A stretch of DNA of 64,000 bases from Serendipita indica DSM 11827 (lineage: Eukaryota > Basidiomycota > Agaricomycetes > Sebacinales > Serendipitaceae). The notes under the pieces are model-generated. The model was not told the DNA's origin. It made no database searches and saw only the letters and a program-made list of their open reading frames with translations. Shown here piece by piece: positions 14,004 to 61,165 of the stretch. The position numbers and the translations under genes were made by a program. The stretch is taken from NCBI GenBank assembly GCA_910890315.1, contig CAJVGD010000031.1, positions 42,209 to 106,208 on the forward strand. The letters are read 5' to 3'. The first letter of the stretch is position 1. Each line of letters opens with the position of its first letter.

Positions 14004-17000
14004 TCACGGGGACGTCGCCATGTTTGTAAAGTCAAGCCATATGAACCTGCCGCCGCGACACAAGAGGGCAATCTTGTTGTCGTAAGAGCGCCACTCGTTC
14101 ATTTCGACCCCATGAGGAAGTTCAAAATGTATGCACGGGCGACGAGAGTCGGATATGTAGCCTTCTTTCCATGCCAATGTGGATCCATTCTGTTCTGTTA
14201 TGGGACGTTCACGGAGCACGGGTTCCCAGCTTGAAATCCGTTCTCCACTGGGCAAGTACGATTGTTCGACCCAAGTGCCTGAATAATATCGGTACACCCC
14301 GTAAGAGTAATGTGTAGGAAAATGGACTACAGATAAGCATGACCAAATGGATTTTCCGTCCAATGAATACCGTAGGTTCTCTAAATATGTATCGTGGCTT
14401 CCAACCCTGACTTTACCAGTCACAGCCCTCGTGATTCTATCCCATGTTATTAATTCTCCATCATAGTAACCGCATAGTATCTGCGAGTCGTCGTGCGAAA
14501 TATCCACACAAGTAATTTCACCACCAGCAACCAGTGGTGGGCCAACACGCCGACCATCAGATGCATCCCAAACTTGTACTTGTGCATCCTTTGAGCCAGT
14601 AATGACCCAATGCTTGCTATCAGAGATACAAAAACACGTTATATTCTCGCCTTTTGTAGAAGCAAGCTGGAGGCAGCCTCGATCGTGGAGTTTAGGGTCC
14701 CACAGCAAGCTTTTTCCGCTATTTAAAGTGCCAAGAACACGAGGATCATTTTGCGAGCCATGTAATTCTTCAATCAACTCGCCTTGAAGAGTACACTCAA
14801 CCAACTCTGCTTTGAAAATATCATAGACCCTCAGATTTCCATTGGGGTACTTGAACCCAGCCGTGAACATAAGTTTAGAATTGTTGTCTGTGAATGCCAT
14901 GGGCGTGCTAAGGACATATTGACATCCCCAGATATATAAATCTTGTAGAAGAGCCTTGGTGGCAACAATCCAGACCCTAAGCACGCACACCTCTGTTTGT
15001 CCGATATGGTAGATAGCGGCGACCATTGTGCCGTCAGTTGATGATGTGATTCCCTTTATAGCCTCATCTTTGGATTGCCAGCTTACCAAGATATCCTCTG
15101 ATCTCTTCCCGGTACCAGCATCGAAGATACCAATATTCCCTGATTCTAGTCCGAAGAAGATTTGCTTGGCATCTCGGGTGATGTTTACCAACCGGCTCCG
15201 TGGCGCACAGCCTGTAACTTGACCGAGAACTATGCTGGAAAGATGAGCGCCTGTGGGAGACCACAAGCGGACCTCGTAGATGTTGAGCTGATTATAACCC
15301 ACCGCGAGGAGGCGAGGAGAGTCTTTTGTGAAGCAGATATCCAAGATCTGTATATCGTCTGCTATAATTGGTAAGGCCACTTGGACACCACTCAGTATAT
15401 CCCATATGTGCATTATGCTGCCTGACCACCCTCCGCCCCAAACCAAATTTGCAGCGCTATGGTCCGAGCAGGAAGCAACCATTGTTCCATCCCATGAGAA
15501 ACAGATTATTTGTATAGGAAATCTCCCACACGAGACTGGTGTCCCCATTGCTGCCCCAGTAGCTGAATCCCAAAGGCGAATAGACCCATTCTTTGCTCCG
15601 GAGATGACATGAGCTCCATCAGGCGAGAAAGCGCAGCAATTAATGCCTGTGTCCTGTTCAACCAATTCGAGGTACAATGGTATATCTTCCTTCCGGCCGT
15701 GCAGGACTCTTGGCAGTGCATTTTGAAATTTTGGGTAGTATTTTGCATAGAGTGTGGAGTTGCGAGGGAGTAAAAATAGGGCGGAAGAATATATACTCAA
15801 TGCACTGCGTTTAATGAGATGCTGATAGGTCGACATGCTCCACACAACCTCGCGACAGAGCTAGATATATCAGCAAGACTCTTTCATGGTAAAGGTAAGT
15901 GGTGAGAGCACTTACGCTGTACTCGTCTTGACGAGAGCTGTTGCCCTGGAGGCTTTTGCGGATGTCTTCGAAATTCTTGGTCCAAACCAGCTTCCCTATT
16001 AAACTGAGTAATTCGATGACGTGAAGTGCCGAGTTGTGTAGGAAGAGCTCTAGCGCTGAGAGCATGTCTTGGTGGGATATGACTGGAATCACATGCGCTG
16101 ACCAGTACTTCGCCGAGTAGAGTAGCGCCGGGGAATGAGCCCAAAGGGCATTCAACCGGGTATCTAAATCTATGATCGTGTTGTTATCTGGATAGCGTTG
16201 GTATGGGGCTGATATGTTGCAGACATCTTGTCGAAGGTCAGCTTGTAGAGTTTGTAGCGTTCCTCTGGCCACGTCCAAGTGGCATAGGTCTGCGTCGATT
16301 CTTAGCTCCGTGTTCCGGCCGCTGTGAAGGTATTCATGAAACGTCGGATGAAGGAACTCGACGACATGTTCCGTGCGAAGGACGCTGTGCATAGATTTGA
16401 TCATAGGCTCCAAATCGTCTAGGTCCATTCGAGTGAGCTTGGAGAGCGCCTGTATAGAAACTGGCTCGAAAAGGATGGAGATAGTTCCGATGATCCTCTT
16501 TACCTCATTGAAAGAAGTCTCTTGAGCGAGACGACGAAGAATCCCAGCATAGAGATGATTAATATCCCCGCCTTCTCCTCGTGAAATGAGACTTGTCAGT
16601 GTACGGACTCGAGCATCCGGACCATCCGCCTGATCAAGCTCTAGACGGGCGGTAGCAACCCATATGAAAAGCCCGTTCGCTTTATCAATGAGTTGTTGAC
16701 GCTCCGAGCGCGTGAGGAGTCCAGTGAAATATTTCTCGACGTAGAGCTTGATATCATCAACGTTTGACGGATTTTCGCTTCCCTGAAGCTCGTAGTGCAT
16801 ATTCCTAACGATAGCCTTTCCCTGAAGTAACGCCATTATATCTGGCTCTGGGCGGCTGGTAAGAAAGATCCGGACGTTTGGAAGAGTTGGGAGTTTTTCC
16901 ACGATGAGATTGAGTAGATCACGTCTCATATCCGCTCTACACTCGTCAACCGCGTCGATGACCAAAACGACGCGCTTGGACGTTAACCGTATGGATGCTT

Positions 17001-18188
17001 CGACAAGTTTCGAGAACTGGTAGCTTAACGGTCGTGCATCGAGTTGCTTGTCCTTTACAAATGCGCTCTGGACGTGCTTTCGAATAGCGTTGTCCTTAGA
17101 CCCAAGATCATTGGCCAGCGTGGTGCAAACAATGTCCGTCTCCGATGTCGACCGAGCATTCTTCGAGAAGAAGAAACGAGCGACGATGACATGATCATTA
17201 GTATCCCATTCATGACAGAGCGTATACGCGACAGTGGATTTACCCGTACCACCGACGTCGCAAAGCCAAAACATCGGTTTTTCAGTATCGAACCCACTGG
17301 CCCAGTTGCGAATTTCTTTGAGAATTGACATCCTCGTCCCGGGCAGGCAAAGCTTGTGCTGAGTCCCCATCGGGCGGGCTTGCTCAGGCCCAAGACTGGC
17401 CAATTTCCACACTTTGAAGCGTCAGGTGAGGCTCTAGAAGTGAAAATTGAAGTATACCTTCTTCTTGAAGATCGATCATTGGCCTTGACGTCGCTTCCTG
17501 AACAAATGTTGCGTTAGTGAGCACCGTGGCGGGGGTAGTGACCCACAGCAAAGATCTGCGAGTACTGGGTGATTTCTTCTTTAATTGAAGCGATGATCCT
17601 CGGATCAATACGCGCATCTGCAATTTTTCCGAGGATGCTACGCACGCCGCCACTGACTCGTTGGAGGAGCATGTCGTTGAGCCTGTCCCGGATGATTTTC
17701 AGGCCACTAGGAAAAAGAATTTTGGTCAGAAAGGGCGGTATGTCCAATCACAACTTACGCCACGTATCGCTGCTGCGCGTGTTGGAATTCGGCAATTGCT
17801 GCAGGTCCTCGTGTACCAAAAGGCAAAGTCCCGAGGTCATCGTCTAATATGTCGATGTGAGCAGATAGTCTCTGGTGAAGTTCCCTGAGACTCGAGGTGT
17901 TTTCATCCACGACCTTTGGCATCAACGATCAGCACATGCAACGGAGGAGCTTTGAACCCGGCATCGAATCACCTTTGTTGTTTCCAGAAAGAGAATACCA
18001 AGTTCGCAAACTGCCTTCATTGGTCCAAGAAACGAGGTAGCCTCGCTGACGGCCTTGGTGATCTTGAGACCCTCGATAAGGTTGTTTCGAGTACGATCAT
18101 AGGCGAGATCTGGATCATGAGCGTATGGAACACTCTTTTTGGATTTTTCTTTCTTCTTGAGCGTGGTAAATGTTCTCAGCGACGACAT
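14004..18188 (-). CDS. NACHT-WD40 NLR-like receptor A (MLKL-like N-terminus)
   Basis: STAND-class receptor of about 1,300 residues in six exons, start ATG at 18188. The N-terminus (from VPYAHDPDLAYDRTRNNLIE through SFLGPMKAVCELGILFLETT) resembles the four-helix MLKL/HeLo-type domain placed before NACHT in agaricomycete proteins; such domains act as membrane-active death effectors in other systems. Exon 5 (starting near 17420) encodes NACHT: Walker A in WLCDVGGTGKSTVAYTL, Walker B in VVLVIDAVDEC, then LTSRPEPDI and a winged-helix-like region (VVEFLHPTFHEYLHS). A phase-0 intron (15915-15859) joins to LCREVVW and the WD40 part, with a few clear repeats (CCAFSPDGAHVISGAKNGSI, then RLWD) and many degenerate ones. 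The gene appears intact. A paralogue lies at 20314-24482. Ligand and role are inferred, not shown. Confidence 0.85.
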
Positions 18189-20313: not shown

Positions 20314-23300
20314 TCATGGCGACATGACTATGTTTGTAAAGTCAAGCCATCTGGACCAACCGTCGTCACATCTGAGAGCAATCTTGTCATCATATGAAAG
20401 CCACTGGAGGATCTCGATGCCAGAAGAAAGTCCAAAATGCAGACGGGGACGACGGGAGTCGGAGATGTAGCCGTCTTTGTATACCAAAGTCGATCTAGTA
20501 TGGTCCATTATGGGACGCTCCGTTGTCACTGTAATCCAAATGTTATCCTCTGATGTGTCCTCGCGCATTACTCCAGCAGCCTTGGCAACCCAAGTGCCTG
20601 AGCGACGCGTTAGCTCGTACAATAACATTTCACGGGAACTGTGGTCAGGAATTGAACGCGCTACAATTGTTTCCCCATCCAATGAGAACCGCAGGCCCCA
20701 TAAACCTGGGGTTACTGAGACATTGACTTCACCGATCATCGTGGCCGTGATTCGATCCCATATCTTGATATCTCCAAAACAGGATCCAGCTGCTATTTGC
20801 GCATCATCGGGTGAAATATCCATGAAAGTAACAAGCGTGTTCCCGGGCATTGGCCTGCCGATGCGCCGACCATCAAACGCGTCCCAAACCTGGAGTTCCC
20901 CAGGATATGTGCAGGTTGCAAACCACAATTTGCTATCAGAAATGCACATACACTGAATTGACCCGAGGCCTGTCTGGCTAACGTCTTGTTCCCCGTTAGG
21001 ATCGCAATCCCAGAGCAGGCTGGTGCCACTAAACGAACGAGCAAGAGCACGAAAGTCTGTTTGTGAGACATCCAAGTTTTGCATCCTGTAATGTCGGAGA
21101 TTACCCCAGACCAACTGTGCTGTTGCAATGTCCAGGACCACATATTCGCCCCCAATCATATGGATAATCTTGGTATCATTGGCCGTGAACGTCAGGAATG
21201 CTATATGAAAGGGCGACCTCATTGTGAAATGTAGGATACAATCTCCGGTAGCGGCCATCCAAACAGAAACCACAAATTCACTTTGTGAACGATTATAATG
21301 GGTAGCAGCAATCAAGTCACCATTAGCAGAGGAAGCAACTCCCCTTATTGATTCTTCACCTGGAGAGAATACAACTAGGTCTTGCAATCTCTTCTCAGTG
21401 ACCACATCAAAGATAGCAATGCGGTCCGATTGAAGTCCATAGACTACTCGCTTGGTATTTGCGGTGACGCTGACCAAGCTCGCTTTGTAGTAGTCCATGT
21501 ATCTATTAAGATCGACGTCAAACGAGCCAACAGTCGCGCAGGAAAGATGGCAGCCTGTGGTCGACCACAAATTGATCTCATGATTGTCGACCAGATTATC
21601 AGGCTTATAGCCTGCTGCGAGTAGACGATCGCACTCTGTTGTAAAGCTGATCTTCAGAGTTGTCAGATCGGCTGCTATCATTGGCTGGCCCACTTGTACG
21701 CCTCTAAACGCATCCCATATATGCATTATGCTACCAGATCTGGCTTCATAGTCTGAGCAGGAAGCAACCATTGTGCCATCGGATGAAAAGCAGACGGTTT
21801 GGACAGAAAATTTTCCACATCGGAGTGGCACCCCGATTGCCGCACCGGCAACTGAATCCCAGAGCCGTATTGACCCGTTCTCTGACCCGGAGACAACGCA
21901 GGTTCCATCTGGTGAGAAGACGCCACAGCTTATGCGCGTGTCCTGTTCGACAAGCTCGAGGTATGATGGTATAGTGACCTCCTGGTCGTATAAGACCTTT
22001 GGGAGTGCGTGCTTGAATCGTTCGTGGTATCTCGCATAAAGTTTTGATTTTCGAGGGAGCAGATAAAGCGACGAAGAATATATATGCAATGCGCTGCGTT
22101 CAATGAAAGGGCGATTAGTTGATACTACGCATAGTATTTCGCGACAAAGCTGCATAATTGGCATTGAGTACGTTTTTTTTTTTTGTGATTAGAGTGACAA
22201 ATTACCTCGCGTTCTTCTTGATAGGCGGTATAAGTTCTGAGACACCTGCGAACATCTTCAAAGTTTTTAATCCATACCAGTTTACCAATTAAGCTGAGTA
22301 ATTCAATGAAGTAGAGCATCGAGTTTCTTAAGAACGACCCTAGATGGACCATGACTTCTTCACGAGATATTCCCGCGATAACGTGTGCAGACCAGTACCT
22401 TGCCGAGTACAGTAGCGCCGGTGAGTGAGTCCAGAGGGCGTTCAAGCGACCTTCCAAGTCGCTCACATCATTATTATCCGGATAGCGATGATCCGGGATT
22501 GAAATGTTGCAGACGTCTTGTCGAAGATCAGCCTGTAGAACTTCCAGGGCCGTCCTAGCAACGTCCGAGTGATAGACCCCGGCATCCACTCGCAGTTCTT
22601 CATTACGACTACTGTGAAGGTACTCGTGGAATGTTGGATGAAGAAACTCGACAACATTCTCTGCGCGTAGTACGCTACGCATAGAGCTTATAATTGGTTC
22701 CAAATCGTCGGGATCTATGCTGATGAGCTTGGAGAGCACTCGTATGGAAACTGGCTCAAGAAGAATTGAAATGGTTCCTATGATCTTCTTCACCTTGTCG
22801 AGGGAGGTCTCTTGAGACAAACGACGAAGGATCCTGGCATACAGATGATTAATGTCGCCACCTTCGCCTCGTGAGATAAGACTTGTGAGTGTACGGACCC
22901 GAGCGTCTGGACCATCCACCTGTTCGAGCTCTAGACGGGCGGTAGCAACCCATATAAAGAGCCCATTTGCCTTATCCACGAGTTGTTGACGCTCCGACCG
23001 GGTGAGGAGCCCTGTGAAATGATTCTCGACGTAGATTCTAATATCCTCAACGTTTGCTTGATTATCGCGTCCCTGGAGCTCGTATTGCATACTACGAACG
23101 ATGGCCATTCCCTGAAGTAACGTCATTATATCTGGCTCAGGGCGGCTGGTGAGGAGTATCCGCAGATTTGGCAGAGTCGGAAGCCGCTTGACAATTAGAG
23201 CGAGAAGATCGCGTCTCATGTCCGCTCTACACTCATCGATGGCATCAATGACGAAAATCACGCGTTTTGCTGTCAGCTGTATGGATGCCTCTACGAGCTT

Positions 23301-24482
23301 CGAAAATTGGTAGGCCAGCGGTCGCGTACCGAGCTGCTCGTCCTGTTCAAATGCTTCTTTAACGTATTTTCGTATTGTATCGTCCTTTGCGCCAAGGTCC
23401 TTGCCAAGCGTCGTGCAGACAATGTCCGTTTCCGAAGTAGACCGTGCATTCTTCGAGAAGAAGAAACGAGTGATAATCAACTGATCAGTAGCGTCCCATT
23501 CATGACAAAGTGTAAACGCGACAGTGGATTTACCGGTACCACCGATGTCGCACAGCCAGAAGACGGGCTTTTCAGAGTCGTCACTAGTAGCCCAGTCGCG
23601 GATCTCTCCGAGAACTGAAAGTCGCGTCCCAGGTAAGCAGAGCTTGTGCTGAGTACCCATTGGTCTGGCTTGCTCAGGCCCGAGACTGGCCATTTTCCAC
23701 ACTTTGAGGCGTAAGAAAAAACCGAGTAGGGAGAAAATTGAAAATACCTTCTTCTTGAAGATCAATCATGGGCCTCTTGGTCGCCTCCTGCGCAACAGTT
23801 GCGTCAATGGACAGCATCATTAATGAAATGACCGACAGCAAAGATTCTTGACTGGTGGAAAATGTCCTCCTTGATCGATGCAATAATCCCCGGATCAATT
23901 CGCGCATCTCCAATCTTTCCGAGAATACTACGGACGCTGCCACTGCCTCGTCGGAGGAGCATGTCGTTGAGTCTATCCCGGATGGCATTTAGACCACTAT
24001 AAAGAGAGCCCCTGTCAGACGAAACGGCTAATTTGGCTAAATCTTACGCTATATACTCCTGCTGCGCGTGCCGAAACTCGGTAATCGCCGCGGGTCCTCG
24101 CGTCCCGGAAGGCAAACTCTTAAGACCATCCTGTAAGATTTCGATATGACTAGAGACCCGCTGTTGAAGCTGCTTGAGACTCGACGTGTTTTCATCCACG
24201 GCCTGTCGGTTTCGAATAATCAGCAGATGCCGACAGGGTAGCTTGAGCCCATTTACTCACCTTTGTCGTCTCCAAGAAGAGAATACCAAGTTCGCAGACT
24301 GCTTTCATCGGTGCGAGAAGTGAGCTAGCCTCACCCACTGCCTTTGCGACCTTTAAGCCCTCGATAAGATTGTTCCGAGTGCGATCGTAGGCGAGATCTG
24401 GATCATGAGCATAAGGAACACTCGAGGTACTTTTCTTAGATTTATCCTTTTTCTTGAGCGTGGTGAGCTTTCTGAACGACAT
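20314..24482 (-). CDS. NACHT-WD40 NLR-like receptor B (MLKL-like N-terminus)
   Basis: Paralogue of receptor A with the same exon plan. The start at 24482 (MSFRKLTTLKKK) was chosen because it aligns with MSSLRTFTTLKKK in A; an ATG at 24524 in the same frame has no counterpart. The N-terminal helical domain (SSLLAPMKAVCELGILFLET) and NACHT part are very close to A: Walker A GGTGKST, Walker B VIFVIDAIDEC, and long identical runs such as RSERQQL and NGLFIWVATARLEL. The intron before the WD40 part holds a poly-T tract (plus strand 22169 onward), then LCREILCV. The WD40 half is much more diverged from A, although the end (GYISDSRRP to WLDFTN then SP) is again conserved. The frame is open throughout. 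Likely an intracellular sensor by family; ligand unknown. Confidence 0.85.
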
Positions 24483-27656: not shown

Positions 27657-30600
27657 ATGAGCTCGAGTTCGGGGAGTTTTCGCTGGAGGTTTCGAAAGGG
27701 CAGCATGGTTTTCACTGGAACGCGTGAAGAGTTTGAAAACGCTTTGCGTCTACAATTCAGCTCCACCTCAAGGGATCGCCCATCTCACCCACAGGCAAAT
27801 CAAAATCTTGTACAGAGTATCAAAGCGAGAACCTGGGATACTTTGTCTCAAAATGAGAAAAGTTTAGGCATTCGAGACGCGGTGGACGCCGAGTTGGTGG
27901 CAACTTCGACCCGACCGTCGTCACTGACGCCGTGTATTCCGTCTCGGCTGTCACAAGAGGTTGACAGACGGATGGATAGAAGGGAAAGTAGTAGCGAGGA
28001 CGTTCAATTAGGTGCGAAGATCAAAGACGCAACCACCGCTGGGAGCCTAACTTGTTTCAATCTTCTTAGCGACATCCCCCTCGCGAGAAGACGCGCGGAA
28101 CAGATATTACGTTGATGTTGGAGTCCAATGTTCAGAGGTAGCCGACCTCGAGAATGCAGGTGAGCCCCTGCGTCTGCCAACATCCGTGGAGGCCGGTTTC
28201 TGACTTTCTGATACAGACGCAGTCGTCCATAGATCTCCCGAGATTTCAGACTCAACAGAACTTCACGGTATATCTGAAGCGTCTGACCAGGCCCAGTCTA
28301 TTCGCCAGGCTCTTGACGTGGGCGTCGCCTGGATATCCGGTCAAGTCAATCAAATGGATATAAACACCGAGGTTGAGATCAAATATCCCGCTCTGCCCAC
28401 TCGTGTTTCTCTGCCACAATCTTGCTCCTGCTCTCAAGGTTCAACTCCGCCGATTCCAGGAGCGTTCCCAGAGAGCACACAACCTCATTTGAACGTCTCT
28501 CACGAATCTTTGAGGCGCTCTCTACGGGATCGTGGCGATTCAAGTGCCCACCGCCCACAGCGTCTCGCTACGAGCGAAGTCTTGCATTCCGTGCAGGGTA
28601 TGCCCCCTTTATTCGATCTGTACACCTTATCTGAGTTATTTGCATAAAGCAGCTCCAGTCGATCACCCTACAAACGCCTCCTCTTCTGCTTCGAGCTCGA
28701 CCAACCCCAGCGCAGGCCGTGTCACAGTTGGTAAAATTGGAGCACCAGTAGAAAATTCGCATCATTCGCCTCTCTCTCGTCCTCGAGTTCTCGTTGGCAG
28801 CGGCGCGTCGAACAGTGGGTCCCGTAGTCACACCCCCATCGTAGACTTCCGCGCCGCAAGGCAATCTCAACGACGCGCCTCAACGCGCGTCTCCCCAACT
28901 GTATCCAACCCGCCCACACGTCCTCATTCACCGCTGTCTATCTCTCCCGGTAAAGCTCACCCTGACAACGACCTCGCGATTCCCTACGGCGACCCATTGG
29001 ACGGTGGAAGCACGGTTGAGAGTTACCAACGTACTCGACCAATGAACTCTGACAAGGGCAAAGGGGTGGCGCATCCCCGTGGTGGTACAGATGCGAGAGA
29101 GAGCGATTATGAGAGTCACGTGTCCGAGTCAGAGTTTGAGGATGATTTCAACATGGTTCCGCGCCTACTTTCGCCTCGTAGTCGATATCCTCCAGTCCAA
29201 CACCGAACGGTTTCGCCTTCTTCGTTGCCTGGAAACCTCAAATCACCTATCCCGGCAGTCTCTCGTCTTTCTCCCTCCATGTATTCTCATCGGAGCACGA
29301 CTTCGACCGCCAAAAAAGGAGGCTCCGCGGAGCAAACCCCACGCCCGAGGCTCAAGCCATTCTCCACCACGGTCATCGCTCCTAGTTCGCAAAACGAATC
29401 TGTATCTGAACATGATACGTCATTTCAATCTGAAGACGAGGAGCTTTTCGATTCGGTCTCAGACATAGATCTATCACAGCTGGACATCAGTCCTGCTCTT
29501 CCACAATCAAGTGACGAGGCTGAACACCGACATCCAGTCCCCAGTGGCACAAAGGCTGCTCAGAGGTCTTCTGTTACAATTATCCAGCCGACAGCTCCCA
29601 CCCCTTTGTCACGCAATCCAGGTTTGTCTGTAGACCTCGCTCAAATTGGCGTACTAACTCGCTCGAAGGTGCTTCTTCGTCCTTGACAATGGTTGCTCGT
29701 CAGCAGCGTCAACCTGCACCAAGTGTACCGCTTGTATCTCAAGAACCTGCCCCGAGACGTTCGACTCCGAAACCCGCATGTGCTTGCGCATGCCCCTAGG
29801 CACCAAGATGTGTGGAATGATCTGCCTGTCGGTACCGCATTTCAGGTCGCGCTCATGGCACAAAATCTTGGTGTAGATCTAGAGGCCATCACCAAAAAAT
29901 CTGTGATCCCACTGACCGAAAAGGGGAATGAAATGATAAAGGCTGTCGAGTCAGTTCTTCGTGAAGCGATGACAAGCCAAGGTGGTGGTCAACCTTCTTA
30001 TTCACGACGAAACGACGACGAGACAGATGTGGAGGACTATGTCACTGATGTGGAAACGGACTCGGAGATGTTTGTTCGACCGGGGAATCAAACCCCGCAG
30101 GCGACCAATACATCACTCGACCAGGTCGCAGCGGAACTTGATTGGGAGGCGGAACAGATTATCCTTGGGACAGGTGACATGCTCGGATGGCGCGAGAACG
30201 AGGGACCCGGTATGGTGGCAAAGTCCAGTTTGCCGCAACGCTCAAGTTCAACGACGAGGACCCATCAGGGAAATCACAGAGCCAGAAAAGTTCTTCGCCT
30301 CTGCTCGATCTCGAGAGCCAAGGTCGCATTGTCCTTGAGCCACTCTGTCTCCGCGGCTCGTCCATCTTTACACGCACTCTTGGGTCGCACCGATTTCTTC
30401 GAATGCGAATCTCCTCGGCTATCCAGCGTCACGTTGGAGTCTGGAGCAACTCAAGCGCCGAGGAACGTTCGGAGAACAAGAGACGTCTTCGGGAGTATGT
30501 TCAGCGCCCACTGTTCATCCTCGGCCGAGTCTATGTCCCAATGCTCGAAAAGGATGGTGTGATCCTGTACTTTTTGGAGGGGAAAGAATCCGTTGGGGAG

Positions 30601-33461
30601 TTTTTTGAGCAACAGTTCAAGCTCCCACGCGGTCGCAGCTACGGAGTCGTCGAGTGTCAAACTCTCCAAGGTCTCATCAACTGGTGGGTTCCACTCAAGT
30701 ATAACGAAAAGCAAGATATGTCAAAACTAGCTACTCGACTCGAGCTTGGCTTCTCCGACACTCTTCCTGGGGTGCTTCTGGAACCGGCTCATATCCACGT
30801 CGTCAATGACATTGGTGCGTGTTCTCCCGGGTTTCTTATGAATACTGTTGATGGCCCTCCACAGAGAATGACGATGGTACCGTCTTTACTGATGGAGCTG
30901 GCTTAATGACTCCGTCGCTTGCTCGGACGCTCGCTCGCAAGTATCCAACCAAGGACCAACGCGACCGCGACGCTCTCGACACCCCAGTCGCATACCAGAT
31001 CCGCGTTCAGACCGCCAAAGGCGTCGTACTCATCGACCCCGATATGCTCGTAGACAGAAACTTTGACGGTCCGCATCGTCTACTGTTGTCAAAATCTATG
31101 TGCAAGGCTGCGCGTGGGAACAAACCGTTGCGCCCTGGACCCGTCAACGGAATGCATATTCTCGACGCCGCCGACTGCATCGTCTGTATTGTCAAGCCTG
31201 CGCCCGTCAGCGCGAGCACGGGTGTGCGCCTCTCCTCCCAATTTATTACTGTCCTCTCGTCGTGTGGCGTTCCCGACGATGTCTTTCTCCAAATCCAACA
31301 CGATGCACTGGAGAAGGAACTCGAGGCTTGGACGGACATCGAGACGGAGGAGGTTAACAAAGGCCACCGGATCAACGAAAACACTCGACTCCGTATGGCG
31401 AGACTCATCTCCCATACTCAATCACTCGTGCTGACCATCAAGAAACGTGAACTCGGAGGCGAGGCAAAAGGGTTGGGCTATGGACGCAGGACGAAGCGCG
31501 AAACCGAGGCAGGATACGAGTCGGAGGAAGAGACCAAACCGAGCCTAGTCCACGCCAACAGCTTTGACAGCTTTTCCTCCATGGCCACTGGATCTGGCAA
31601 CCTCGAACTTCGATCCGTACCTGCCTATACTCACAACGAGATTAGTGGATTCCCAGCTTCGAAGGGTCAAGCACTTCATGATGCGCTCCTAGCTGGGATT
31701 GAAGTCCACAAGTCGAACTATTGGTTGAAGCTGTGGAGTGAAATGGCTTCCGAGGCGATGATGAGGGTTGTCGCAAAGTTTCACCTCCCTGTCGAGAGGT
31801 CTGCGTGTGGATTCTTGCAACCTGGTGAGTATAGAATGGATATCCAGTTCTAATGCTGATTGGTGTAGATTTTACGGGTAGTCTAAAGGAAGGAGAGGTC
31901 TTCTTTTCGCCCAAGTCGGCAATGGTGGACTCGGAAACGGGTCTCGCTGTGCAGTTCATCGAAGGCGATGTCATTGTAAGTCTTCAAGGTACTTGGATGC
32001 TCGTATTGAGCCTATGATCAGGTTGGCCGCCACCCAGCACTACTGCCGACGGACATGCGCAAAGTCAAAGCGGTGTTTGTCCCGAAGCTCCAAGACTTTA
32101 AAGGAATCTTGTTCTGCTCTATTCACGGCGAACTTCCTTTGGCTTCCATTCTTGCAGGAGGAGGTAAGTCCGCCCTTTATTCTCGGCCTAGCTTAACAAA
32201 CTTTGACAGATTATGACGGAGGTTTGCAATAGACTGGCCTGATCTTCACGTGCTAACTTTATCTAGACGAAGGGACAATCATCTGGGAGCAGAGAATTGT
32301 CCAGCCTTTCAAGAATGCACCACTTCATCTGCGCGAGCCACCACCAGGTTTCGACGACAAGTTTGGGAAGGTGACCGAAAAGGTGTCAGATGTCAACAAG
32401 GAAGCCTCGAGTTACGATGCCTCGGAGTACGCTGCGATACTTGCGCCGAGGCTCATTGCGTCGGTGGGTGAAGGCGATACTTTTAAAATCTGTAAGCTTG
32501 GTGTGAATAGCGTTATGTTTCTAACGCGTTTCAGACAACTCCTTCTGGAACATGGCCGTCCACCGTTATGGTCTCTGGTATCCGGAGAACGACAAAGAGC
32601 TGAGCCCAGCGGTTGAAATGGCGCACAAGTATGTGATAAATCGAGGTTAACTTCGTCTCTGACCCTCCTAGGTTCAATGTACTCATGGACAGCAAAAAGT
32701 CTGGCCTGCGGATCCGGGATGAAGAGCTCACCCACGATCACCGAGAGTGGTCCAAGTTTAGCGAGCCATATTGGCGCCAACGACAGATGGAGCTTGACAA
32801 GAAGGAGACTTTCATCAAGGAACACAACCCAAAGTCTCTAGAGCCCAAGGGGGGAGGCATACCGATTCTCGACCGACTCGCCTACGCGGGCGAGAAGCAG
32901 GTGGACGAAGAAATTAAGCGTCTGAAGGACCGCGTCGACGCATCGAGGGAGGAAAATGACCTCTTTTTCCTGGGCAACGGTACCGATGAGGATCTGGCCG
33001 CGCCGTGGAATGCAGCAGTCAACTTTGCAAAGGGGAACCGTGTCTACGAGGCGCAACTCGACGCCATCAAAGTATTCGTGAAAGAGTGCTTCGATGCCAT
33101 GAAGAGGATCAGTGTAGAAACGGCCAGGAGACGGTGCACGGCACGGCAGAGGACCAACGAGATTCGGGCCATTTGTACGCGGTTCGCCGAGTTTCAACCG
33201 CCATTGGATGAAGGGCAGCCGTCGATGTTTGGTGTGCTGGATGCGGATGCAGTTCGAGGACGGGTCATGGCGAGCTGCATGTATGTGCATGATATGCTCC
33301 ATGGTGGATCACGTCGCGGAGGGAGCACGAATGGACTCGGATGGCAGATTGCGTTTCGCGAGTTGTGTGCGATCAAGTCCAAGACGGTTTCAAAGGGGGA
33401 TACGGTTTCACTTCCGAGGACTGTTCATGAAAAGCGCGAGACGCACAAGTATTGGGGTTGA
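27657..33461 (+). CDS. RNA-dependent RNA polymerase (RNA silencing)
   Basis: Cellular RdRP of the QDE-1/RDR type, which copies aberrant RNA into double-stranded RNA for Dicer. The core from about 30200 is well supported: LFILGRVYVPMLEKDGV, HIHVVNDIENDDGTVFTDGA then LMTPSLA, GPVNGMHILDAADCIVCIVK, FVPKLQDFKGILFCSIHGE, and the catalytic LAGGDYDGDEGTIIWE. The DYDGD motif is split by two introns and lies on a 12-nt exon (32210-32221). Other introns: 30815-30864, 31826-31868, 31976-32021, and two between 32490 and 32672. The helical C-terminus ends at TGA 33459-33461. The N-terminal exons are less certain: a basic start (MSSSSGSFRWRFRKGSMVF), an RdRP-like patch near 28500-28640 (RIFEALSTGSWRFKCPPPTA), then a Ser/Pro-rich disordered stretch (about 28650-29690). 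Exon borders between 28115 and 30230 are provisional. Confidence 0.85.
32210..32221 (+). other. 12-nt micro-exon carrying the RdRP active site
   Basis: ATTATGACGGAG is bounded by introns 32164-32209 (gtaagt...gacag) and 32222-32266 (gtttgc...tctag). With the G before and the AC after, it encodes D-Y-D-G-D, the metal-binding catalytic motif of cellular RdRPs. Both flanking frames fit only if this exon is included. Confidence 0.8.
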
Positions 33462-45724: not shown

Positions 45725-48446
45725 CTAGATGAGGTGGGCCGTTGCGAAATTATCTCGGAGGATAATGCTACAGGGAAGAATGTCAGCCATCATCCACTAG
45801 CCGGTATTTGGTAGAACATGACCGAAAGAAGAGTGGAATATTGGAGGGAAAAAGGCGAGATTAGGACGAGATCGAACGATGGGGACACAAATGGTAAATG
45901 ATCAAGAAAATGAGACGGCGAAAGGCGGACGAGGTCGAAATGAGATATGAGAAAGAAATTACGCACTCGCAGACTGCAAGGATGACGACTCGCAGTTGAT
46001 CCGTATCCGTCGCATTTGTAAAATGCGTATATACAAATCGACCTTTGCCCACCGCAGACCCACCCGTCGCACTCTTTGGCAGACTCGACATGCCCACAGA
46101 GAGTTCCTTGGGTGCGCTTCTCCTGCCCGTCGAATCGAGTGTCGCATTTTGACCCACACTGTCCTGGCGCGTCCGGGCAGTTCGTGAAGACTCTTTACGC
46201 TCTCGTTCCTCAAGCAGTCCAGATCGAGAGCGCGAAGAGCCAGCAGTAGGCGACGGGCGCTGGCCCATTTCCAGCGCTTCCCCCGTCGCCCGTCCTTTGC
46301 CCTTGTCCTTGGAGCGCGGGGACGAGTTTGAGGTTGGGGCCGTGCTAGGTGTAAGTGTCGACTGCCCATGCGAGCTCATCGTCGTTGTCCCAGCGGTCCC
46401 AGTGGTGGCGGTTGGACTCAAGTCGCCGTGCATGCTCTGCTTTTTCCGCTTTGTATCCCTGTTATCCAGCGAATTTGAGAATGAATTGCTCTTCGTCGAC
46501 TTTGCCCGTGACGAAAGCGGTTCGTGACTAGCAGACTTTTTCGATGCATTCGCCGCAGCGTTGTTCATGTTGCGTGTAGCTTTGACGGCTATTCTTAGAA
46601 ATCTAGAGATGTCGTTAGGGGGCACTAGCCGCAATCAATGAGGAGCGTGCTGACCGTTTTCGAAAATATTCCCGGGCAGCATCAGCATCGTCATCGTCTC
46701 CACCATAGTCTGGGAAATACGTTCTGATTGGAAATTTGCCAATCTTCTCCGCGAACAAGTCGGTCTTGTTAAGGAAAAGTATCTATCGCTGATGAGCCCC
46801 CTTCTTTGTCAATTCCAGCGGTTGCAGACGAACCAATGCGGTATTCTTGAACCACTGGCTCGAGCAGACACCGTCCCAAAGGGACATGGCATCCTGCATC
46901 TGATTCGCGGTCGAATCCTCGATGAGCCCCTTGGGGAGTTTCAGCTCTAGCTCAGAGGGGGACAGGGACACTTGCCTGGTTATACCCACTAAGCCCGACG
47001 AGGAATAGAACGGCAGTAACCCCTTCGAAACAATGTATCCACTTTCGTCGCTCGCTCTTCTGACCACCGACATCGACCAAATGTAATTTAGTTTTGCCGA
47101 CTGCAACTTTGAGCGGCTGCAATTGGTCCCGTCTTCTGGCATCTTGATTTGCACCCGCCCCAGCACCGGCCTTTAAAGCACCCCCTATGTCCTTTCCGAG
47201 ATGAAATACAGTCTCCTGAATGCCAGTGGTGCGGCCTCGACAGCGTAGAATATCCTCGTCTGTGGGCATATAGTCTGGGTGGAAAAAGCTGGCCAGGCGT
47301 TGCGGGGAGCTAAAGAGGTAGGGCAAGTTGTCTGGGATGGCAACCCCCGACTCGATGGCTATCCTGTCCAATTGAGCGCCGGCACCGGGAAGTGTCGGTG
47401 TCAGTTTCATTTCCGATGGCGTCGCCTGTCGACGGTGCTGGTCAAAGAGCGCCGCGTATTCATCTGGCGTAACCCCCCACCAGCACTCGCGCAAAACAGC
47501 CTCAAACTCGATTGGGAATGGTTGCCCAGGACGGAGGTCGGGTGGGTAGTTGAGCTCGTGTAAGAGTGAAAGCTGCCGTGGCGTAAGACTGCCGGAAGCG
47601 AACAAGTTGAGCGAAATGGACGGCGACCGAGATCTAGACTCTTCGTCTTCCTGCTCTTTGATTTGTTGTGCTTGTGAAGACGAAGACTGTGGGTCCTCTT
47701 TCCGCCCCTCAGTCTCCCCTTCAGTCTCATCGGTCGCCAACGAGTCGGTCGATTCCGGTGGGGTGGGACTAGGGCTCATGGGCGGGACTGGACCAAATAA
47801 TGGCTTGCGTGGCTTGACATTTGCGTTTGGAAAGACGGGTGGGGGTGGATTATGCGAAACGACACCAGGTCGGTGATGGTGCATAGCGTGCGAGTGGACA
47901 GGGACTTGGTGGATCGGATTCTGTGTAGCTTGTGACGCTTCCTCAGTCTCGAGAGGCGCGAGTTCCCGGAGAGCGTCTAGAAGGGAACGCATGCCGTTGA
48001 CGAGATTGTAGAAGATTTGCACGCGGTACGCCTCGCGCTCATTCTCGGTAAAGGGAATATTGTTGATGAGACGCATTTGCTAAGCAACGCATGGAGACAT
48101 CAGCACCCAGTATTGCAGCATAGGAGGGCCATATACCTTGAGGACGGTGCTCTTGCCAGACTCGCCACTCCCGAGTAGCAATATCTTGGGCGTATTCAAG
48201 AGATGGCGTCTCGTCTAATCGTCCATAACGCATTCACCGCCCGCGGTCGTAGTCACGTTTCATTTCCGTCACGGCCGAGTTCGTCGGGATGGATTCGCGA
48301 GGAAAGACGACTAGTTAGCATTCTCTCGTGTGTTTTCATAGACGATGACAAACCTCTCGGAGCGAATGATCAATCGACTTGCTCGTCCGGACGTCTTCAG
48401 AGTCATTTGCGGAAATGCAGCTGCACTGAGAGGCAGCAGCACCCAT
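45725..48446 (-). CDS. heterotrimeric G-protein alpha subunit with two large inserts
   Basis: GTP-binding alpha subunit acting at the plasma membrane below receptors. Start at 48446: [10 protein letters not shown] fits N-myristoylation (MGxxxS) and palmitoylation. Exons 48446-48354, 48214-48137 and 48079 onward join cleanly. G1 is [10 protein letters not shown]2 [12 protein letters not shown]3 [21 protein letters not shown]4 FLNKTDLF, G5 TNATDT. The last exon (45767-45725) gives [17 protein letters not shown], a proper C-terminus reached over a 199-nt intron. Two inserts are unusual: about 100 Pro/Ser/Glu-rich residues in the helical domain (from [10 protein letters not shown] to [10 protein letters not shown]) and about 140 Ser/Arg-rich residues between RIAVKATRN and [11 protein letters not shown]. 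The intron after SGYNQ appears to be GC-AG (CAG/GCAAGT). Larger than the usual 350 residues (about 670), as in several basidiomycete G-alphas. Confidence 0.9.
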
Positions 48447-53159: not shown

Positions 53160-56100
53160 CTAGAGCGCGACGCCGACGACAGAGGGCGTCAGGCTTGCCG
53201 TGCTAGGCGTGCGAGTGAGCGTATACGAGCTCGGGGCGGCCAATCGCGAGGTGGACGACGGCGGCGTGGCAATCTTCGACTTCATTGGTGTGAAGCCGGC
53301 CGCTTCCGTTGCAGATCCCGCAGACTTGCGGTACGTCATGCCAGCGCCAGTCTTGCCCGTCACAGAGGGGGGTGCGATGCGAGTCGGTGGGCTCCCAGGA
53401 GCACTGGTTGCTCGCGCAACGCCGAGCATGCGGGGGATGGATCCTGCAGTCTCGGATGTACTGCGAGACGAGACAATGGAGCGAAGCGATCCAAGCCCTT
53501 TCTTGCCAATGGATCCAGTGGCAGGTGCCGGAGGAAGAGGTGGGGTAACCGGTTCTGCAGGAGCGACCATCATTGCGCTAACGCCTCCGCTCAACGTTCG
53601 GTTGCGGGGAATAGTCGATTGGGGCATTCGGCTACTCGTTCTCATGGGAGTTGAGATGAGTGGAGGCATTGCGGGATTCCCATTCGTGCTCCCTGTGCTT
53701 CCCGAACGAGCTCTGACAGCACTTGAAGCAGCAGATGCAGCAGCTGCGATGTTTCCAGAACTCTTTGACAGGCTGCCTCCGGGAAGAGGAAGACCACTCT
53801 TCTTGGGCGTAGTCGCACCATTTTGCAGACTTGGCGAACTTGGGAGAGCGAATGTACCAGCTCGTGGGCTCAGCCGTCCTCCAGCAGCAACAACAGTCGG
53901 CAAGGTGAGCATCTGGAGGCCGCGCGGTGCAGGCTTTTTCAATCCATCTGGTTTCTTGGTCTCGGATCCAGGTGTGGCTGGAGGAGCACCCGGTACTTGT
54001 CGCATGGCGGTTGGGTAGGAAAAGTTTCCTCCGCTATACCGAACCTCGGCAGGACGAGGCGTAGGTTTGGTGATTTCATCGTCTCCTGGGAGCATTGCGT
54101 TTACGGGCGATGGACTCGGTGGACTCGTCCAACTCCGACCACGTCCCATCGCCGCAAGTCCAGCGCCGGCACCGCTAATGCTCGCTGACCCAAAGCCAAT
54201 CGAACTTGCCCCGCTTGCTCCTTGAAGATCTTCGGGCGTCGACATGTCCTTGAGCATCGCATCATGTCCAAGAGAGGGCATGCGGTCCGCCTCTGGCGTC
54301 ACCGGAGGAATGACCCCACCGCTGCTCGACTGACTCGAGTTACCAGCAGGGCTGCTGGATCGTCGATCTCCCATTGAAAAATTAAAGGTAGGATGTCGAC
54401 TGCTTGAGGCAAGTGGATGGTTCCTCGACTTGAACAGCGATGCCGTGGGAAGCATTTGCGCATGCTCGATGATGGACATTGTCGCAGAGGGCTTGAGAGC
54501 GGGTTTGGGGGTGACGGGTGGTTGACCATAGGGACTTCGCTCGACAAACACGACGGCGCGTGTGCGAGGAACCTCATTACGAGAGGTAGCATCGGATCCA
54601 GAGCTGGTGCTACTATGTTTCGACGCGAGGGAAGCGCTGGAGATGGTTGCGCCAGATGGGATAGAGGGCATAGATGGAGAGCGGGAGAGGTGGAACGAGC
54701 TTCCGCCATAAGAGTTGATAGACGAGGCCATGGAGCCTTTGCGGGAAATGGTCGAGTTGAGCGTCATGGTCGACAGACGCCTTGTCAATGGAGACGGTGC
54801 ATCTTCGTCCTCGCTGTATCCAAGTTAGATCAGCCGTACAAAAAACAAAGGAGACGTACGAATCACTCCAGCCAAGACCAGTCGTCAAACCAACACCTTC
54901 TCGAAGAAGCTTGCCATCTCGATGGCGCCGTTTGCGCTTATCATTTGGCTTTGGTACTTTGAGGGTAGACCTGATCGACATTCTTGACCCTTGGACTTCT
55001 TCCTCGGGTGTTGGTGGCCTTAGAATTTTGGAATGCGGTGACAGGAGACCGTCCTTGAGCATCAGCCGCGGCTACATGAAGTATAAGTAACCAATCGTGT
55101 AGCCAATGATGTTTGGACATACCAGAGGAGTGTGGAGATCAATACTCGAGTCCGTCTCGGCACCTTCGTCCACCTCCAATTCGGGTTCTCGATATTTTTC
55201 TTCCGGAGGGAGCTCGAGCACAACAGAGTCTCGTACCATCACACGATCACGATCGATATCCATCGCCTTGCGTGTACTTTCGCCAGGCTTGATGAACCCA
55301 AGCGCACGGTCAACCTCGCTCCGTCTCCATTCTCCCGACGGATAAGGTCGAATCGCACCCGTGCTTCGTCTTCTCCGCATCGCCTTTTTCTGCGCACTAC
55401 TCAGACTCTTGCGTCCACGCCGAATCATCTCCTCAATCTCTGGACTACTCGCCCCATCCGCCCTCGAGTCCTCCCGATCAGGCGAATCCGGCAATTTTTT
55501 CTCAATCGCGGCCATTGACTGCGGTCTTCGATCCTTGGGACGACTGAGCGTGGGCCCACCACGTCCAAACAGCGCTAGCTTCATGCGCTTTTCGCGTACG
55601 GCCACTTCTTGAAGCAATGCAAATTCTCCTTGCATCCCATCTTGCGCCATTTCCCGTTCGAGCTTGACTGCAAAATCTTCAGACGCACGAGCTTTGCGCG
55701 AGGTCCTGGCGGCCGGTTGTTGCTTCCCACGATCACGTCCAGCACTCGGCGAGGCAAGCACATCGTCCTCTTCGTCTTGATCCTCATACTGATACATTGC
55801 AAGCGATGTTTCGGAAGAAAGCGGTGTGGCTTGGTGGACATTAAGCGCGGGCGGCGCCGGAAATGGAGTTTGCAAACCTGATGACATGGCAGAGCTCGGT
55901 CTCTCCAATTCGAGACTGGGCTTGGAGGACGAGACACCCGACGGGGCAAAAGCAGTGCCAGGCGTAATCGTCAACGCAGACGCAGAAGAGGAAGAGGTCG
56001 AAGGTGCGAGTCGAGATTTATCCGAATGCGAGCTTGATATCGATGTGCGAGGGAGGCTCTCGTCCATGGCGGACTCCACGTTGTTCGAAGCAGGTCCCTT

Positions 56101-58713
56101 TGGCAGCTGACCGAGCCATCCGTTGGGTGATGCTGTCGCGTGTGAGCTTGCCGAGTTGGGCGTGACGGGTGCGGCATCGTCCCATACGCTAATGTTGACT
56201 AGCCGGTCCTGGCTCTCGTGTGATTCAACGGATACAGATGTGTGTATATTCGATGTCGATCGGTGATCATCCGAAAGAGGCTTGTTCGGAAAAGCCATGG
56301 GAGTCTTCCCACTCGGATCACTTGCATCCTCGAGCGTCACGTCAGGCACAGTGCGCTTGGAAGACGTCCCCTTTGGCTTTATCATAAGGTGGGCCGAGTT
56401 GGAGCTCGCGACAGAGTTTCTGTTCTCAATCTCTTCACTGATCCTCGACGCAAACGTCGACCCAGAGCCCACTACGCCCGGCTCAAACGTCTGGATACTG
56501 TCGTCGCTTTCTCTACGAGCGTAGAGAGAAAAGAGGCTCTCGCGAGCCGTCGCACGGTGGCCATTGCTGGAGAGACTGGGCGCCCTGTTCAGGGTGATTG
56601 TTTCGTCGGCATCGTCTTCCTCGTACGATTGGTGTAATTGCGACCGTGGAAGAGTGTTGAACGGGGTCGTGGCTGCACTTGATTGGTAAGCAGGCGAATG
56701 TCCTCGCGATATCGATTGGGTGAGCGAAGGCGCAACAAGAGAGGCAGCCGAGGGAGACTGAGTTCGAGAGTTGACATCTTCTCCTTCAGCGAGCAACGAT
56801 CCCTTGCGGACCGAACTAATAAAGCTCGTCGGACGCGATCGGTCCCCACGAGAGCTCCCAGGTCGGGAAGTGGGCGGGGTTCCAATACCCAATTTGGCAC
56901 TCGCTAGACTTCGCGCGCTCTGAGTACGCTTCCCTGGACCCCACGTGCTCGCCAGTCCTTCCAATCCAGCACCCACACTCCCCAACAACCTCTCACCGGC
57001 CAACTCTGCACCTTCGTCGTCTTGAACTTCTTCGGGGCTGACGTCCATGACTTTGCTCGCCGCGCCACGAAACGTATTGTTGCTTCGAGTCGAAAAATTG
57101 GACAACATGGACGCACTCGAGACGCGTCGTTCTGCCTTTTCCCTCCTCAACAACTCCAACTCTTTTTGAACATCGAGCGGCTCGTCGTCCATATCCACGC
57201 CGAGAATTTGAGGAGCGGGCATAGTGTTGTTTATCGGACCATTGGGAGAATTACTAGATTGCGACCCGGTACCAGAATCGACTCGGCTGAGAGCGGCAAT
57301 GGCAGCGAGCCCACCATTAAAGCTCTCGGTGGACAAACGCGTCACCCGCCTGCCAATCGCCGCATAGGCCGTTCCATTTGACGTCGTAGTCGACGTACTA
57401 AAATTTGGCATATGTCCGGGCCGATTCTGTCGTGGGGGTGTACCAGACATGGACGGATTCGAATCTTCTCCGCCAAACTCGCTAGGACTCCCGCCGCCTC
57501 CAAACGTGGCGACGCTCCCATTCCCTAGTCCAAGTTTCAACGGCATTGTCGAAGTATAGACACCACCCCTGTGCATATCACCCGTGCTTCCAAAGCTACT
57601 AGCCCGACTATGCTCTCCGTCTCGCACACTCGCGGCTCCACCGATGCCGTGACCAAACGTGGCGACCGACGGGGCTGAATACGGAAACGTCGCAGTCGTC
57701 GGCGTCGTGGCGGCCGTAGACGTTCCCGGACCAAGCGATTTAGGAAACGGGAAAGAAGCCTGGGTAGGCGATGCTAGGTTGATACTTTTTCGATTTTCCT
57801 TTCTGCCCATGGGTGTTGTAGGGATCGGTGGGAGCGGTGTTGTCGGAGGAGGGCCCGCAGCGGATACTGAACCCCAGCTTTGCCGTCGATAGGCGTACGA
57901 ACCGCTTCCGGGTGTCTTTTGACCATCTCCGAGTGGGATGTGGCCACCTGGTGGTGGTGAGGTAATGTTGAGGGCGTTGAGTCCGGTGCGCTTTGCTCGA
58001 AGAGCGGCTAAACGAGCAGAGGCAGAGAGCGGGACATTCAACGGAGGTGTTCCGGGACCTGTAAGTGGTAAGAAAAAAAGGAAACAAAAGGATGTAGGAT
58101 ACTCACCGATAAACGAATTTGGCCGCGAGCTCAGAGCAGATGGCGTCTGCAGCGCAAGGTGACCGTGGGCGCTGGAGCCACTTGATCCATCGGCGGTACC
58201 TTGGGAATATTGAGAAGTTCTCTCGCCGTTCATAGTCCCATTGGGACTATTGAGCAATGTCCTTCGCAGATTCTCATAATGGCCCACACGCTCCCGATTG
58301 TTCGCACTCGTCGTCGCCGTCGCAAACGTCGTGTGGCTAAACGAACTCTCGGTAGGGCTACTCGCACCATCCACATTGGCAAAGGCCATGGTGCTTTCGA
58401 CACTCATGCGTGGCATCATCGCTTCTTCACCGACGAATACGCCGCGATATGCGCCCGGAGCGGCGGATGCACCACGGCTCCGACGACGTTCTTTCCGTGC
58501 AGCCGTCGTTGAGGCTGAAGAGCCTGCAGCGTCTGCATCTGATGGGAGAATGGGCGTGGATGCAAAGGGAGTCTCATGCGCAGATGGTGCACCAGGTGTT
58601 CGCCTCCCACTTGGTGTCGTAGGTCGTGAGCTGGAACCGGGTGTCTGTGGGAGAGGAGAGGTTGGGATGTGTGTTGGTGGTCGGGGAAAGGCTGAAAGGA
58701 TTGCAGAGGCCAT
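53160..58713 (-). CDS. about 1,800-residue low-complexity protein
   Basis: Three confirmed junctions unite several frames into one gene: an in-frame 54-nt intron near 58070 (NSFIG/gtgagt...cag/GPGTPPLN), one near 55075-55123 (DLHTPL to PRLMLKDGLL) and one near 54820-54860 (GLGWSDS to EDEDAPSPLTRRL). The start is 58713 (MASAILSAFPRPPTHIPTSP). Nearly the whole protein is Ser/Thr/Pro/Gly-rich and predicted disordered. Short conserved-looking islands include VSPEEVQDDEGAELAGERLL, a charged helix with SEDFAVKLEREMAQDGMQGE, SSAQKKAMRRRRSTGAIRPY, and ILRPPTPEEEVQGSRMSIRS followed by KPNDKRKRRHRDGK. No enzyme, membrane or Cys motif. Many SP/TP sites suggest kinase regulation; a cell-cortex or scaffold role would be typical of such proteins but is a guess. 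Confidence 0.7.
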
Positions 58714-61165
58714 TGACCTCTATTTTGACGTTTGGGTAAGTAGTGTTTGTCTCGCGTAAATGGCGAGTTGGTGTCCGTTTGTGCAAAATCCGAGTGGTGG
58801 TACAAAGCAAACTGTTGGAAGCAGAAATAGGACCGAGAAATAATAAGACGGATTCCGTCCTTTCCGTGTGATTTGAGAGAGAAGAAAGACTGGATACAGA
58901 AAAAGCCGGGTCAGCAAGCGTGCAAAAAGAGTGGCGGGTTGAAGTCGTGACGAGATGGGTGAGAGTAAAAGTGGTGGGGAGATGGTAACCATCAAGAGGA
59001 CAAGGATGAACGGAATCGGCTTTGTGATCGGACCGACTATAGCACTGCCAGTGATGCGCCGCTGTGTGCTGTATACAGTCTGATAGAGCGCTGAAACGGC
59101 ACAACCGCGCGCGCATAGAAGCGCAGGGGGGGAAGGGGGGAGAAGGAGAATAGAGTCGGCCGGGAGGGTGAGAAATTCAGGCTGGCCGAGAAAAGGCTGG
59201 AATTCCCAAGTAGTCTACCGATTGGACGAGACCCATTTGCCGATGTCAAAATGGACTTTTGTAGGCAAATAGGAGATGAAAAGAGTTCCACGTGCGGATA
59301 TTCATCCGACGAGTCTGGATTGCAATAGACCTGCGCCGGGAGCGCATTGAGGATGCAAACCGAATCCTCTTTATCTTTCTGTAACCCGATGTCGCTCAGA
59401 AACCAAACGGACAGCGCATTTTGCGATCCGCACGAGCGGCAAAGTCATGGCGGCCGGCAACTCCAAGGGCCGACAGAGCGGAGGAGCGGCGACAAAGAAT
59501 CGTGCGCAGCGTCGAGGACGAGCAAGAGAATGCGCAGATTATGGTGTAAATGCAAAGATTGAGACAAGAATTGGGCGAGAGAGAGGCGAGCAGCGAGATT
59601 GATAGAGAAAAAAGAAGAAATAAGAGGGAAAAGAAGGGAATGGACGACAAACCTAGTGAGTAGAGTGTGTCGGATTGAATATAGAGTATGATTTGAACGC
59701 TTTGCTACGTCGACGTTTGCGCGTAGACGTGTGTTGATAGTACGCAATGGCGGAACTGCGTAGTAGCCTATTTGACGGTAAAAATACGCAGTTAGCGCGA
59801 TCAAAAGATGATCTAACACTGAAATAGACTTGCGTGGACGTCTGAAACTCTGTCCGGCGCAGTCTACACGTCGACGACGTCGGAGGGCGGACACTGGGGG
59901 TTTCCAGACTGTCGTAGGATTGGTCGGAGATGACCAGGGCGTCGTGTAGGATGCTCAACTCGACGAGGAACGTACAATTGCCTACAGAGGCAAGAGTCCA
60001 ACCGTTGAGCCGCGGCCGTTTGGAAATTGGCGACAAAGCAACCTGCCTCTCTGAGCCTGGTGAATAAGATTGACGAGATTAGAGAATGACACGTCCTCCG
60101 TCTAACAACCTCCAGGGCCAACTATGTCCAGATATTCGGCTAGCTGGCCTCTCCACCCAATACCCCCCCTAGGGTCGGCTGCTATACGCGGACAAAGTCT
60201 AGACGGGGCAACTCTGCTGGAGCGGTGGTTCTGAGAAAGGATAAGCTACCGCGGAAGTGACGCAGTCCCGACGGAGCCTGATCAACCAGTCCTAGGTCGA
60301 AAAGGGGAACGGGGCGGCGTTGTCTGTAATCGCGGGACCGAACAAGTTAGCCGGATTTCTTTCTCATGCCCTTGTATTTCATTGATCGATCTCTCTTCTC
60401 TCCAAGCGTGTTCTTCAAGCACGCCGTACCCACTCTGTTCAAAGGTTCCTGGTCACGCTACCCAGTAGCTCTGGACCTCGTATTAAATCCATCTAGGAGT
60501 ACTATCAGCAATTGGTTTGGTCATCCGGTCGAGGGACCTCTCTGGGCACTCTCAGGTGGGTGCCTTTTGGGTTGAGCACTGTCTGGGTAATTACGCCTCT
60601 GAATCTCCTTGCGTGGTCCTCTTCGAACAAGGTACCCATTCTTCGAGTCGCAAACGACGTAGTGGAATGACAGAGTCTCGAGGAGTGGTCATTTACCTCG
60701 AGTCGACATATATTATCAAAGCTGGTGGGACCATCCCAAGATGATTCCATAAATTTCTGTGACTTGAAGAATATACATTCTCAAGGCGTTTATAATGGTA
60801 GAGTCCCAAAGGAATACGAGAAACGGACTCGAGTTGCGATCTATAGTAGTTTCGTTTCCTGTATAGACGAATTACTTTCCCCAATTACTAGATATATTGT
60901 CAGGAATCGCTCACACTCAGTACTAAAGATGTAAGGGGCCATTTGTCCGACATGGTCTCAGCGGCGGACTCGAGTACGCCCACCTTGGTAGGGATGCGTG
61001 GTGAGATGGAGTGCTTTTCAAATGTCTCTAATGTAATCATGAAATGAATCATAAGCTATCTATGTCGGGTCCGCCAGACGCACCTTTGACCCGACCACCA
61101 CAGTTTGTGACGACTGCGACACCCCGAAACCCGGCCTACAATCTACATATCAACTATAGACTCTA
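58714..61165. other. 2.45-kb divergent intergenic region
   Basis: Between the low-complexity gene (minus) and SEY1 (plus). It is purine-rich on the plus strand near 59100-59170 and 59570-59650 (leader-like pyrimidine tracts for the minus-strand gene). No frame resembles protein and no RNA gene was found. Confidence 0.5.

Follow-up and report, generated by a model that had tools for sequence, protein, structure and literature searches.

How does a polymerase come to have its active site split across an exon of 12 nt, and is that exon a switch or simply a fixed part of the gene? The question is raised by a predicted RNA-dependent RNA polymerase (RdRP) gene of Serendipita indica DSM 11827, located within the 64,000-nt stretch of DNA that was analyzed here as a whole (hereafter, the window). 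The catalytic DYDGD motif of this gene appears only when two short introns are removed on either side of a micro-exon. We consider it very probable that the micro-exon is old, that it was already present in the ancestor of this gene and of a paralog elsewhere in the genome, and that it is constitutively included. It would have been made by two introns next to the motif and then frozen by the invariance of the motif itself. The evidence for this reading is set out below, together with that bearing on regulated skipping and on other explanations.

A micro-exon within the DYDGD loop

The predicted borders agree to the base with the layout given in a preliminary description of this DNA, in which introns of 46 and 45 nt flank an exon of 12 nt (Table 1). 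Micro-exons are taken here to be spliced-in exons of about 30-36 nt or shorter; ATTATGACGGAG has 12 nt and GT-AG introns on both sides, and branch-like TTAAC and CTAAC elements lie upstream of the acceptors of these introns. The exon completes the first Asp codon with two bases, encodes Tyr, Asp and Gly in full, and opens the third Asp codon with a single base. It had been described as carrying the metal-binding residues, which is right for the middle Asp, encoded whole, but not for the other two: both introns are in phase 1, and each interrupts a metal-binding Asp codon, the first and the third of the three, after its opening base.

Translation of the modelled splice product that includes the exon restores GGDYDGDE (...LASILAGG-DYDGD-EGTIIW...). 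Without the exon, the product reads ...LAGG-D-EGTIIW..., and four codons are lost while the reading frame is kept, as had been proposed. Retention of either flanking intron introduces a stop codon within 20 codons (TGA in the first, TAG in the second). Among single-intron parses of the region (donors 32120-32239, introns of 38-160 nt), 14 kept an open frame and none of these contained DYDGD.

All introns modelled between 30815 and 33461 are GT-AG, and the spliced frame is open until the stop codon. The spliced core comprises 988 aa and extends from position 30178, the edge of an open reading frame, up to the stop (33461); as an exon start the position 30178 is unproven, and the gene runs further upstream of the modelled part. 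A change of frame was observed in the N-terminal region (30125-30228); the searched range contains just two GT-AG introns, of 50 and 104 nt, that would join the frames. A joining intron would need a poor-looking acceptor, so that either the gene model is insecure upstream of this place or the DNA carries a frameshift here.

Table 1. Modelled features of the RdRP gene (positions within the window).
Feature	Positions	Strand	Details
RdRP coding sequence preceding modelled intron 1	30178-30814	+	Open reading frame, translation, Pfam
Modelled intron 1	30815-30864	+	50 nt, phase 1; unmatched in L011
RdRP coding exon	30865-31824	+	960 nt; intron match, translation
Intron	31825-31868	+	Common to L011 in position and phase
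RdRP coding exon	31869-31975	+	Between two introns shared with L011
Intron	31976-32021	+	Common to L011 in position and phase
RdRP coding exon	32022-32163	+	Ends with LASILAGG and base 1 of the first catalytic Asp codon
Intron before micro-exon	32164-32209	+	46 nt, GTAAGT...TTGACAG, GT-AG, phase 1
Micro-exon ATTATGACGGAG	32210-32221	+	12 nt, predicted from sequence
Intron after micro-exon	32222-32266	+	45 nt, GTTTGC...ATCTAG, GT-AG, phase 1
RdRP coding exon	32267-32491	+	Opens with the remainder of Asp codon 3, DEGTIIW
Intron	32492-32534	+	Common to L011 in position and phase
RdRP coding exon	32535-32628	+	Between two introns shared with L011
Intron	32629-32671	+	Common to L011 in position and phase
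Final RdRP coding exon	32672-33461	+	Stop codon TGA

The spliced product is related to QDE-1

The suggestion that the gene encodes a silencing-type RdRP was confirmed by profile and structure-chain matches. The Pfam RdRP model (PF05183, cut-off 23.8) scored 273.6 bits with the micro-exon versus 248.6 bits without it, the match starting at residue 50 of the gene model. The best solved relatives found by phmmer are 5fsw_A, named QDE-1 (E 1.6e-33), followed by 2j7n_A and 7y7p_A (E 1.9e-30), which we take to be QDE-1 of Neurospora crassa. Cellular RdRPs other than QDE-1 scored more weakly (7w82_A, E 2.8e-12; RDR2, E 2.7e-07). In two alignments the spliced protein is matched with QDE-1 chains through GGDYDGD, so that the DxDGD motif created by splicing, DYDGD, falls on that of QDE-1. 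The window gene thus has its domain, its GGDYDGD and its overall alignment in common with the QDE-1-type RdRPs 5fsw, 2j7n, and 7y7p and, judged by these similarities, is a gene for a QDE-1-type cellular RdRP.

We regard the micro-exon as more than a chance reading of the DNA because of the gain in Pfam score, the alignment with QDE-1, the lack of DYDGD in any single-intron parse, and the recurrence of the layout in a paralog (see below). In QDE-1, residues D1007, D1009, and D1011 sit in a Mg2+-coordinating loop (1007-1011; PMC1750930), and activity is abolished by the substitution D1011A alone (PMC2950127). The skipped form of the window protein would be four residues shorter, with a single Asp left in the motif. 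Skipping had been expected to yield a full-length polymerase lacking its active site; the frame is indeed kept and most of the catalytic loop is gone, but one Asp stays. A polymerase missing four of the five loop residues should be inactive.

A paralog has the same exon

Within the 24.7 Mb genome, a 125-aa fragment of the window protein matches only itself and one other locus, L011 (4 rows, E up to 10). Of the 971 columns in the alignment of the two proteins, 300 are identical (31%) and 131 are gapped; by the measure of the MAFFT alignment, identity is 35%. L011 contains this 12-nt exon as well, again between two phase-1 introns, and 11 of its 12 bases are identical to those of the window micro-exon; length and motif are thus both kept in the relative compared, as expected of a motif-embedded constitutive micro-exon of the P450 type. 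By position and phase, six of the seven modelled introns of the window gene have a partner in L011, and six of the seven modelled in L011 have one in the window gene, the shared introns forming a run of six. Because some borders in L011 were chosen with reference to the window protein (one acceptor being revised), the agreement over six introns is not fully independent and is slightly biased toward a match.

A DNA pattern describing the micro-exon layout matched twice in the genome, at the window gene and at L011, whereas the reversed control pattern had no match; the pattern was composed after both loci were known and is blind to the 18-nt exon of L012 (see below), and it therefore shows rarity rather than an independent discovery. 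Contig collections described as prokaryotic, viral, and plasmid yielded no relatives beyond this genome. The same micro-exon together with six shared introns at 31% identity is what plain inheritance predicts. From this one paralog we infer that the micro-exon is older than the duplication that gave rise to the two genes.

The paralog also bears on the possibility that the layout is an artefact, whether from faulty assembly or from wrongly parsed introns in a dead gene. The N-terminal change of frame, with its poor-looking acceptor or frameshift, would fit such a reading. However, the introns are GT-AG, the spliced frame is open, the catalytic motif and the RdRP domain are intact, and the same layout at an independent locus mostly refutes it. 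We find an artefact barely credible.

Other RdRP loci and surroundings of the gene

The 17 RdRP match rows of the genome, grouped by hand, represent six loci. In L012 (reverse complement, about 3190-3320), which is of a second RdRP type, GDLDGD is covered by a frame-neutral exon of 18 nt that extends 3 nt beyond the window gene's exon at both borders; the second intron of L012 here is GC-AG (borders and introns read by eye). This exon could be a separate gain or the result of intron shift. Both L009 and L013 have an intron solely after the motif, with borders again read by eye. L010 is the tandem neighbor of L009 and has the same translation across the motif; the pair (G000:C14:360000-370000) shows 85.9% DNA identity over a 3,266-position alignment. 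By phmmer, RDR2 and chains of the 7w82 type come closer than QDE-1 to fragments of L009 and L012, the two loci compared in this way. Other silencing machinery in the genome is represented by 13 rows of Piwi matches, spread over four contigs, and by two Dicer-dimerisation rows.

Elsewhere in the window, two neighboring pairs of frames on the reverse strand (14007-17421 and 20317-23765) each combine NACHT/NPHP3_N with an adjacent WD40 and are NLR-like. NLR-like genes of the NACHT/WD40 kind are known from fungal non-self recognition. A G-protein alpha subunit-like frame is found at 46955-48079 (reverse strand), covering profile positions 40-222 of 333 over residues 1-369. Pfam gave no match with an E of 0.001 or below for the longest open frame of the window (55075-58719, reverse strand; 1,215 aa between stops), and no Rfam family reached threshold within the window. 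A match to DUF6534, a family typical of mushroom-forming fungi, is consistent with a basidiomycete, though no proof of one.

Possible origin and persistence of the exon

Proto-splice sites, that is, junctions of the GGNG/A type (the slash marks the junction), are prone to intron gain. The codons of GG-D-x-D-G-D supply two junctions of this kind, and in both the window gene and L011 the two introns sit exactly at the GGNG/A junctions that flank the loop. Introns near the motif in the other loci are at slightly different positions, and this spot therefore seems intron-prone. We propose that two phase-1 introns at these junctions would have left a 12-nt micro-exon within the DYDGD loop before the duplication. 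Once two introns flank invariant codons, the length and phase of the exon between them could hardly drift, and any loss or displacement of the exon would destroy the motif, for which reason the micro-exon would persist. A study of P450 micro-exons offers a similar argument for exon retention (PMC12940212). If each short intron is recognized and excised separately, as we suppose, the exon would always be included.

Regulated skipping and its alternatives

The preliminary description had called the micro-exon a ready-made on/off splice switch for RNA silencing. Under such a scheme, 32164-32266 would be removed as one intron in some conditions, the resulting RdRP would be dead and possibly dominant-negative, and a silencing branch would be turned down. 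Skipping is frame-neutral in the window gene and, given equal length and phases, in L011 as well, and the skipped parse retains an open frame. On the other hand, frame neutrality is explained by the equal phases of the two introns, and it is common in this gene anyway, being a property of three of the six modelled internal exons (960, 12, and 225 nt). The skip would moreover excise 103 nt as a single intron, compared with 43-50 nt for the modelled introns (n = 7). The effect of D1011A on QDE-1 (PMC2950127) is in favor of a switch, as is a fungal precedent that makes the idea reasonable, the glucose-dependent 20-nt micro-exon of Xlr2 in Trichoderma virens (PMC11121469). In the mushroom Schizophyllum commune, however, exon skipping accounts for 1% of the splicing events in coding regions, although that study's junction-level analysis gave 1,527 skips there (PMC5034255).

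The introns around the exon were compared between the window gene and L011 using 2,000 shuffles. In regulated animal micro-exons, the flanking introns are typically conserved beyond other introns. Here, the two flanking introns gave p values of 0.07 and 0.46, and four control introns gave 0.35, 0.38, 0.08, and 0.85; no extra conservation beyond the controls was thus detected, though a test confined to a single distant pair (31% protein identity) is weak. The donor of the second flanking intron, GTTTGC, is not strong-looking. It occurs in 2 intron-like stretches of the window versus 5 in the reversed control, compared with 5 versus 0 for GTAAGT and 6 versus 0 for GTGAGT, although the unsupervised donor scan is too noisy for ranking (361 intron-like stretches versus 403 in the reversed control). 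With a donor that looks weak, inclusion could be inefficient, and this would suit a switch. However, the weak-looking donor is absent from the paralog: the matching donor of L011, GTAAGA, is stronger by eye, yet not enriched (3 versus 5 in the reversed control). Five further RdRP loci also count against a switch; with six loci in the genome, switching off the window gene alone would not be expected to switch off RNA silencing.

Overall, plain inheritance, the commonness of frame neutrality, and flanks no better conserved than the controls leave the switch without direct support, unproven rather than disproved, and we judge it very unlikely. A conserved switch would, even so, be compatible with both genes having kept the 12-nt length. 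In that version, the QDE-1-type RdRPs of the lineage would keep the frame-neutral exon as an ancient, conserved poison-isoform switch, the skipped polymerase being folded but dead, competing for RNA or partners, and so tuning silencing. We rate this joint claim as very unlikely.

The weak-looking second donor could also act in another way, through noisy splicing. Frequent retention of the intron would bring in stop codons and lead to nonsense-mediated decay, and RdRP dosage would be tuned with no skip product at all. The stops met on retention of either intron agree with this, and intron retention is the commonest event type reported for S. commune (PMC5034255). In addition, unspliced introns of Cryphonectria rdr4 lead to products without DXDGD (PMC4182546). 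However, retained introns can be expected to bring stops in any case, which makes these unspecific as evidence, and the authors of the rdr4 study treat that gene as a pseudogene (PMC4182546). Tuning by decay is in our view highly improbable, and constitutive inclusion of an inherited exon remains the preferred reading.

Comparison with known genes

A search of the literature, judged by titles and the starts of abstracts and with subscription papers mostly outside its scope, found no paper on a micro-exon in a fungal RdRP. In Cryphonectria, the QDE1-clade genes rdr1 and rdr2 contain three introns and one, respectively (PMC4182546), whereas the window gene has seven in its modelled part, in addition to the micro-exon in the motif. 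Splice variants of C. parasitica rdr4 lose DXDGD, as a skip in the window gene would; in that case, however, the loss comes from unspliced introns and truncation in what its authors consider a pseudogene, and not from skipping of a micro-exon (PMC4182546).

Closer parallels to an exon of this size come from other gene families. Micro-exons of 2-10 aa are described as widespread in the P450 genes of Phanerochaete, nearly a third of which reportedly contain them (PMC1184071). Among these is an 8-nt micro-exon in the conserved AGHETT motif, and a 1-nt micro-exon of Fusarium CYP621A is required for the protein, with transcript evidence reported (PMC12940212). As in the window gene, a tiny exon lies inside a conserved motif that the protein needs (PMC1184071, PMC12940212); in contrast, the window exon belongs to a different family, is a multiple of three in a polymerase active site, and is predicted from sequence. 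The Xlr2 micro-exon likewise encodes part of a functional domain in a fungus, but it is condition-dependent and, at 20 nt, not a multiple of three, whereas the window exon has 12 nt and is predicted from sequence. Reads joining the exons that flank the Xlr2 micro-exon were not seen by the authors (PMC11121469).

Significance

A gene finder blind to a 12-nt exon would call the window polymerase dead or truncated; in a search of unspliced frames, the RdRP match of the gene stops 2 bases before the first intron. If regulated skipping did prove true, it would provide a reversible route to a dead silencing polymerase. A catalytic triad, it appears, has remained split by two introns since a duplication old enough for its products to have diverged to 31% identity.
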